From contig NZ_VFNC01000001.1 in the NCBI RefSeq assembly GCF_006715395.1, positions 1,612,001 through 1,676,000 on the forward strand: 64,000 nt of DNA. Direction: 5' to 3'. Under the pieces are notes generated by a model. That model ran no database searches and was not told the DNA's origin. It saw only the letters and a list, made by a program, of their open reading frames with translations. This document shows positions 55,384-57,574 of this stretch, in pieces. The first letter of the stretch is position 1. Each line of letters begins with the position of its first letter. The position numbers and the translations under genes are program-made. Source of the stretch: Streptomyces sp. SLBN-31. GTDB lineage: Bacteria; Actinomycetota; Actinomycetes; Streptomycetales; Streptomycetaceae.

Positions 55384-56196
55384 GTGCGCAAGATAGTGCA
55401 CCGCCATCTGGGCAAGGTGGTGGCCGGTGCGGCCATCGCGGTGGCCGGGACCGCCGTGATGGTCGGGATCACGCTGCCGGGGACGGCAGGGGCGGACGAA
55501 ACGGGAGGGAAGACGGGCACCCGGGCGGGGCAGCAGGCCGGCCAGGGGCAGGACGGGGCGGTACCGGCGGGCGTCGTCGAGCAGGCGCCGGCCCAGGGGG
55601 ACAAGGGCAAGGGCGGTGATCCGCTGACCGACGACGAGATGAAGCGCGCCGAGCAGATCGCCGCGAGCCGGCAGCTGCTGAAGTCCGCCGAGAACGTCGA
55701 CGGCAAGCGCGGCCCGCAGCGCCTGACGGTCGACCTCGCCGACCCGGAGAACGACGAGACCGACGACCCGTCCGCGCCGCGGCGGGCCGACGTGACGTTC
55801 TACGACTACAGCAACGACACGCTCGTCACCAAGACCGTCAACCTCGACACCGGCAAGGTCGAGGACACCGGCGTGCAGCACGGCGTGCAGCCGCCGCTGA
55901 GCCGCGCCGAGAACGCCGAGGCGGCCACGCTGCTGATCGCCGACCCGCTCGGCAAGGGCCTGCGGGCCGATTACAAGGACGCCACCGGCAAGGACCTCAC
56001 CTCAGCCGACCAGCTGCTGCTCAACGGCGCCGTCTACCGTGCCACGCCGGGCGCCCAGCCCGCCGTGCTCGACAAGTGCGGCGAGCACCGTTGCGTGCGG
56101 CTGTTCCCCAAGGTCGTCAACGGCCCGTGGATCGACGCGAGGTCCTTCGTGATCGACCTGAGCGCCCACAAGGTCGCCCAGCTCAAGCGCGGCTGA
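55384..56196 (+). CDS. Secreted protein resembling the N2-N3 domains of copper amine oxidases
   Basis: This is a 270-residue exported protein. Signal peptide or anchor is HLGKVVAGAAIAVAGTAVMV (about 8-30), then a Gly/Gln-rich linker. Residues about 78-95 (DPLTDDEMKRAEQIAASRQL) look like the N2 helix of copper amine oxidases. RADVTFYDYSNDTLVTKTVN, then LDTGKVEDTG and GVQPPLSRAENAEAATLLIA resemble the N3 domain (strand-turn-strand, G-V-Q-P-P, then a helix). There is no catalytic domain; the next gene (56255) encodes one. One Cys pair (KCGEHRC) is near the end. The start is GTG at 55384 near an upstream GGGGGAAG. The two genes are 58 nt apart and presumably co-transcribed. Confidence 0.7.
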   Translation: MRKIVHRHLGKVVAGAAIAVAGTAVMVGITLPGTAGADETGGKTGTRAGQQAGQGQDGAVPAGVVEQAPAQGDKGKGGDPLTDDEMKRAEQIAASRQLLKSAENVDGKRGPQRLTVDLADPENDETDDPSAPRRADVTFYDYSNDTLVTKTVNLDTGKVEDTGVQHGVQPPLSRAENAEAATLLIADPLGKGLRADYKDATGKDLTSADQLLLNGAVYRATPGAQPAVLDKCGEHRCVRLFPKVVNGPWIDARSFVIDLSAHKVAQLKRG

Positions 56197-56254
56197 GCCC
56201 GCACTCCATCCACTTTTCCAACTTGCTCCTCCTGTGCAAGGGAGTCACCTCGTC

Positions 56255-57574
56255 ATGCCCGTCAAGAGAATGAGCCGCGCCCGCACCCGGGCGGCCGTGG
56301 GCCTGTCGGTGGCCGCGCTGGCCGCCGGCGCGACCACCGGAGCCGCCCCGGCCACCGCCCAGCCGAGGACCGCCGGCGCGGCGGCCGCCGACTGCAGCGC
56401 CGCCTACAAGATCGAGCAGAAGCTCTCCAGCGGCACCACCTGGCGGATGTGCTGGCGCTACGACAGCAAGGCAGGGCTGGTCCTCGACAACGTCTCCTAC
56501 CAGCCCAAGGGCGAGAGCGCGCCGATCAAGGTCCTCAACAGCGCCCGGCTCGCCCAGATCGACGTCCCCTACGACGACGGCAGCGTCGAGTACGACGACC
56601 TCACCGGCTTCGGCTTCGCCCAGGGCCTGATGAACCTCGCGCCCGGCGAGTGCCCCGGCGGCACCATCAAGACGGTCAAGGTCCCCGACGCCTGGGACCC
56701 GCAGCACCCGAACGTCAACGGCCTGTGCACCACCACGCGCTCGCGCGGGCACGCGTACCGGATGCAGGGCGACACCGCGAACAAGGTCTACCAGGCCCAG
56801 GGCAAGGACCTGCTCGTCTACACGGTCAACCAGGTCGGCTGGTACGAGTACATGACCGAGTGGCGCTTCCAGGACGACGGCACGGTCAACATGAACGTCG
56901 GCGCCACCGGCAGCCTGTCCTACGACGACTACGACGCCGGCGACGGCCGCGGCTGGCCGCTGGGCAAGGGCGCCAAGGCCTACGCCACCAGCCACAGCCA
57001 CAACGTCTTCTGGCGGCTCGACTTCGGCCTCGACGGGTCCTCCAAGACGAAGGTCGAGCAGTACGACTCGACCGTCAGCGCGCCCGCGCACGGCCAGGAG
57101 GCGCCGAGCGCCAAGACCACCCGCACCAAGGTCGCCAAGGAGCTCGGCGGCGACTACAAGGCCTACCGCTGGTGGCGGGTGGTCAGCGCCACCGGCAAGA
57201 ACAAGGACGGCCACGCGCGTTCGTACGAGGTCGTCCCCGGCCCCACCACCAAGTACGCGGGCCGCAGCTTCACCAAGCACGACGTGTACTTCACCGAGTA
57301 CAACAAGTGCGAGCAGTTCGCCACCAACAACACCGGCAACTGCCCCGCCGGAGCGGGCAAGTCGGTGGAGAAGTGGGTCAACGGCCAGACGCTCACGCAC
57401 CCGATCGTCTGGATGAACGTCGGCTTCCACCACATAGCGCGTGACGAGGACCAGCAGCCCATGCCCATCCACTGGCAGGGATTCTCCATCGCCCCCAGGG
57501 ACGTGACCGCTATGAATCCGCTCACTCCGGACGAGCTCTCGTGGCAGAACGGCCACTGGCGGCCGCGTAGTTGA
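56255..57574 (+). CDS. Secreted copper amine oxidase catalytic-domain-like protein, divergent active site
   Basis: This is a 439-residue exported protein with signal peptide residues about 1-42 (RAAVGLSVAALAAGATTG). It corresponds to the C-terminal catalytic domain of copper amine oxidases. The three copper His are readable: H247 and H249 in TSHSHNVFWRLDFGLDG, and H393 in VGFHHIARDEDQQPMP. The position of the topaquinone Tyr is Y197 in QVGWYEYMTEW, where typical enzymes have GNYDY: Tyr is kept, the preceding Asn is Trp. The region expected to hold the catalytic-base Asp (LTGFGFAQGL) has no Asp. N2-N3 domains are missing but appear to be supplied by the preceding gene. Start ATG 56255 (GGGAG upstream). 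Enzyme activity is uncertain. Confidence 0.8.
   Translation: MPVKRMSRARTRAAVGLSVAALAAGATTGAAPATAQPRTAGAAAADCSAAYKIEQKLSSGTTWRMCWRYDSKAGLVLDNVSYQPKGESAPIKVLNSARLAQIDVPYDDGSVEYDDLTGFGFAQGLMNLAPGECPGGTIKTVKVPDAWDPQHPNVNGLCTTTRSRGHAYRMQGDTANKVYQAQGKDLLVYTVNQVGWYEYMTEWRFQDDGTVNMNVGATGSLSYDDYDAGDGRGWPLGKGAKAYATSHSHNVFWRLDFGLDGSSKTKVEQYDSTVSAPAHGQEAPSAKTTRTKVAKELGGDYKAYRWWRVVSATGKNKDGHARSYEVVPGPTTKYAGRSFTKHDVYFTEYNKCEQFATNNTGNCPAGAGKSVEKWVNGQTLTHPIVWMNVGFHHIARDEDQQPMPIHWQGFSIAPRDVTAMNPLTPDELSWQNGHWRPRS

Follow-up and report, generated by a model that had tools for sequence, protein, structure and literature searches.

The 64,000-nucleotide (nt) stretch of Streptomyces sp. SLBN-31 analysed here (contig NZ_VFNC01000001.1, positions 1,612,001 to 1,676,000; hereafter the window) carries two adjacent genes, P1 and P2, which lie on one strand in different reading frames (Table 1) and together encode the domains of a copper amine oxidase. 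Both proteins open with a hydrophobic export-type segment, as judged by eye, in agreement with an earlier note on this DNA that had described two neighbouring proteins, each with an export signal of its own.

Two chains with the domains of a copper amine oxidase

P2 is the catalytic domain (D4) of a copper amine oxidase. It matches PF01179 at 1e-39 (137 bits against a cut-off of 27), the model is also matched by all 35 P2 relatives, and P2 is its sole match in the SLBN-31 genome. Aligned with AGAO, the phenylethylamine oxidase of Arthrobacter globiformis, P2 retains the three copper-ligand His and the topaquinone precursor Tyr, and these residues are invariant in the 155 rows of the split family, as are Y106, Y199 (AGAO Y384), M403 (AGAO M602), C133 and C158. 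The row count omits L001, L002 and L032, which are copies or near-copies of the window pair, and includes duplicates (146 distinct among 157 loci) as well as two incomplete copies, one truncated (L151) and one partial (L157). The earlier note had read the catalytic domain, the copper ligands and the cofactor Tyr correctly, but had seen no catalytic-base Asp; D115 aligns with AGAO D298 and is Asp in every split-family row and in all 10 single-chain rows, a comparison set chosen from many loci. The replacement of Asn by Trp beside the cofactor Tyr, which the note had also reported, extends through the family, where this position is Trp in 150 rows, Tyr in 5 and Asn in none, whereas it is Asn in 10/10 single-chain rows. 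The cofactor motif in the window reads Gln-X-X-Trp-Tyr-Glu and departs from the copper amine oxidase consensus given in the part of PMC3382800 that treats it.

Table 1. Features of the P1-P2 locus, in window positions
Feature	Position	Strand	Remarks
P1 gene, D2-D3 chain with export-type N-terminus	55384..56196	+	270 aa, GTG start
P1 export-type signal (residues 1-37), which may be cleaved after AGA	55384..55494	+	read by eye
P1 residues 71-270, D2 then D3, boundary near residue 167	55594..56193	+	superposition, hhalign; boundary from secondary structure
Intergenic gap P1/P2, 58 nt	56197..56254	+	
P2 gene, catalytic chain D4 with export-type N-terminus	56255..57574	+	439 aa, ATG start
P2 export-type signal (residues 1-35), which may be cleaved after ATA	56255..56359	+	by eye; predicted local distance difference test (pLDDT) <50 over residues 1-44
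P2 residues 44-428, D4 fold	56384..57538	+	
Y106 = AGAO Y284 (hydrogen-bonds cofactor O4; role from part of PMC9491219)	56570..56572	+	155/155 rows
D115 = AGAO D298, catalytic base	56597..56599	+	155/155 rows, alignment
W196, replaces Asn (AGAO N381) beside cofactor Tyr	56840..56842	+	Trp 150, Tyr 5 of 155 rows
Y197 = AGAO Y382, topaquinone precursor	56843..56845	+	155/155 rows
H247 and H249, copper ligands = AGAO H431, H433	56993..57001	+	155/155 rows
H393, third copper ligand = AGAO H592	57431..57433	+	155/155 rows

P1 alone matched nothing in a Pfam search or in a search of PDB sequences, its family profile matched no amine oxidase among PDB sequences, and Pfam N2 models were touched by only 2 of 33 P1 relatives (E 0.047 and 0.091). 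The NCBIfam model PRK11504 (primary-amine oxidase) matches P1 residues 79-188 at 3.7e-5, profile-profile comparison with hhalign identifies D2-D3, and the P1 fold superposes on residues 17-210 of the Hansenula polymorpha enzyme (HPAO), 93-281 of Escherichia coli TynA (ECAO) and 10-192 of AGAO. P1 is D2-D3 (N2-N3) of a copper amine oxidase, as previously proposed, although the Pfam N2 models were nearly silent, and these two domains are present on a separate chain.

Linkage and distribution of the pair

Among 199 Streptomyces genomes, the P2 clade is present in 86 and P1 in 85 of these; P1 lies directly upstream, on the same strand and 41-332 nt off, in 90 of the 94 P2 places (P2 rows below 270 bits and P1 rows below 107 bits were dropped, the latter being 11 rows, mostly fragments). 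Of the four P2 genes without an adjacent P1, one lies at a contig edge (G150), one is a second copy that is truncated (G104), one is a stop-containing fragment (G102) and one borders an assembly gap at which the start of P1 is visible (G180). Across 394 genomes of the class, with the best 4 or best 6 candidates per genome scored, a strong P2 had an adjacent P1 in 39 of 40 cases and no strong P1 was found without P2; P2 rows below 233 bits were dropped here and, for the pair count, also P1 rows below 209 bits. No strong case of P1 away from P2 was found, and plasmid records yielded no P1 match and only P2 matches below 60% identity. The pair is thus adjacent and conserved in actinomycetes, a point that the earlier note had proposed to check, and two of the outcomes it had named as speaking against its reading, a lack of N2/N3 matches and independent occurrence of the two genes, were not found.

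Beyond its own family (f1), the pair was found in five others (f17, f19, f26, f28 and f36). It is present in 154 of the 157 loci examined, always in the order P1 then P2, with a median gap of 57.5 nt, mixed frame offsets and, at 19 loci, genes predicted to overlap by 4-8 nt; none of the 154 pairs is naturally fused into a single D2-D4 polypeptide. The nonsynonymous rate (dN) was below the synonymous rate (dS) for both P1 and P2 in all seven pairs tested, and dN of P1 exceeded that of P2 in each. Taken together, profile scores, fold, dN < dS and gene linkage indicate that the split pair is more than a product of chance.

Weak P1-profile matches were also seen, 6 of 26 of them without a neighbouring catalytic domain (G565, G707 twice, G313, G546 and G334). 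The two in G707 (C40 and C80) score 27.8 bits, in a genome for which the class search that scored the best 4 candidates gave no copper amine oxidase match.

A probable two-subunit enzyme and its alternatives

Domain complementarity and gene linkage suggest that P1 and P2 form a complex, and we consider it likely that they are the subunits of a single copper amine oxidase located outside the cytoplasm. P2 would bind Cu(II) through its three conserved His, and copper and O2 would most likely convert Y197 to topaquinone, with D115 acting as the base and Y106 holding the quinone oxygen. P1 would supply D2 and D3; in single-chain enzymes, these domains pack against D4 and contribute to the shape of the entrance for the amine. 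Each chain would be exported on its own, with assembly following outside the membrane, most likely into a (P1-P2)2 heterotetramer built on a D4 dimer, and the enzyme would turn a primary amine into an aldehyde, ammonia and H2O2. In AGAO, the Asn side chain lies against the quinone ring, which can flip once the Asn is lost, as described in sections of PMC9491219. The aromatic residue of the split family (Trp, rarely Tyr) probably assumes this ring-packing role, stacking on the quinone ring and guarding it against flipping in place of Asn.

Several observations weigh against this interpretation. Asn before the cofactor Tyr is called strictly conserved in a passage of PMC3382800, which also gives 5-10% cofactor for HPAO N404A, and the N381A variant of AGAO has 1/160 of kcat and 1/180 of cofactor formation according to a portion of PMC9491219. 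The consensus Thr is also absent, with Q193 in its place in P2, and residues such as H320, H392, H406, W407, Q408 and D416 are invariant in the split clade alone, indicating a shared catalytic region that is altered, as the three His among them show. A DUF305 gene, considered below as a possible copper partner, was missing at 34 of 46 distant loci, within the flanks examined, and does not lie beside the window pair, the SLBN-31 genome having two such genes elsewhere. Finally, one genome (G554, locus L130) carries P2 alone, intact-looking and with a lipoprotein-like (lipobox-like) start, and a profile search found no P1, so that in this genome at least D4 may function on its own.

This lone P2 keeps all active-site residues, as would be expected if P2 by itself were the enzyme, a D4 homodimer, and P1 a membrane-tethered helper in folding, copper loading or cofactor formation rather than a lasting subunit. 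Some P1 relatives open with a hydrophobic stretch whose cleavage site is not obvious by eye, and the faster evolution of P1 fits a helper as well. However, P1 retains the D2-D3 fold and not a chaperone fold, P2 has nothing in the place of D2-D3, and the G554 protein has the longest branch in the D4 tree and may be a derived exception, so we regard a helper role for P1 as unlikely.

In galactose oxidase, a Tyr radical close to the copper is covered by a stacked Trp. A repurposed copper oxidase of this kind, working without topaquinone, or a protein that only binds copper, would account for the Asn position being aromatic in 155/155 rows and for the invariant residues peculiar to the split clade, but Y106, D115, Y197, Y199, the three copper His and M403 are all invariant, and D115, the base of amine chemistry, is not known to serve any function in a radical oxidase, making such repurposing quite improbable. 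About equally doubtful is a clade of two-chain copper oxidases, built on the amine oxidase fold, whose copper-neighbouring Tyr, held by Trp or Tyr, would mature to a Tyr radical or a quinone of different chemistry, while an interchangeable or surface-anchored D2-D3 chain would govern substrate access. It is hardly conceivable that P1 and P2 are pieces of one gene that was frameshifted or is decaying, and a frameshift or pseudogene origin was rejected: broken copies of the pair occur in some genomes (e.g., G102, G146 and the second copy of G196), but both chains start independently and carry export signals of their own, the frame offset from one gene to the other is not constant (30, 64 and 60 loci), dN is below dS in both genes and the pair is intact across several families.

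Relatives, known enzymes and surroundings

In the D4 tree, the split rows fall on one side of a branch (support 96/89), and four single-chain Trp-Tyr rows join them to the exclusion of the single-chain sample (100/99). These four copper amine oxidase-like proteins (L158-L161) resemble the split clade in having Trp before Tyr (WYRY, 4/4) and the same three His, but differ in being one chain, with no export signal seen and a very long branch; they fall just under the Pfam cut-off (25 and 22.1 versus 27 bits). Their grouping with the split rows suggests that the Trp may predate the split, tentatively, because the branches are long.

AGAO shares with the split pair the D2, D3 and D4 folds, the three copper-ligand His, the topaquinone Tyr, the catalytic Asp and Y284 and Y384, but it is a single chain with Asn381 before the cofactor Tyr, and P2 is ~21% identical to it over D4. 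ECAO, which is exported, has the same D2-D4 folds in a single chain, with an extra D1 domain and the Asn kept; HPAO-1 of H. polymorpha is likewise a single chain, peroxisomal, and keeps Asn404. Copper amine oxidases are described as homodimers in which one chain holds D2-D4, in the relevant part of PMC3382800. The split clade breaks both the single-chain and the strict-Asn rule while retaining the remaining catalytic set, and it offers a natural test of the purpose of D2-D3 and of how the cofactor is retained without Asn. The literature searches, which did not extend to subscription papers, turned up no description of a copper amine oxidase encoded by two genes or of an Asn-to-Trp clade, and a term search of the main text of a 2025 tree-of-life paper (PMC12058724) found neither Streptomyces nor actinobacteria. 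Many Streptomyces and related soil bacteria carry the pair, which probably represents an unstudied form, made in two parts, of an otherwise well-known amine-oxidising enzyme.

The window pair is flanked by a divergent glycogen-debranching-type gene and a HEPN_SAV2148 gene. In 12 of the 46 distant loci (L112-L117, L120, L125 and L131-L134), a DUF305 gene lies directly downstream of P2 on the same strand; five of these calls were checked with Pfam and the others with a profile built from those five. CopM is a DUF305 protein described, in part of PMC4335983, as copper-binding, periplasmic and partly extracellular, and the DUF305 neighbour is possibly a copper-delivery partner and a lead on metal supply to exported copper enzymes. 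After D4, the P2 C-termini of L114, L116 and L125 show by eye a Pro/Thr-rich linker, an Ig-like part and an LPxTG-like end, suggesting a cell-surface location in some lineages; a single cell-wall anchor Pfam match was obtained among P2 relatives (0.012). Upstream of the G554 P2 gene lies a gene for an LPxTG-type protein with an Asp/Val/Ala repeat. Aldehyde dehydrogenase was rejected as a regular neighbour of the pair, being present at one locus only (L146), where its gene lies upstream of the pair and a beta-lactamase-fold gene lies downstream.
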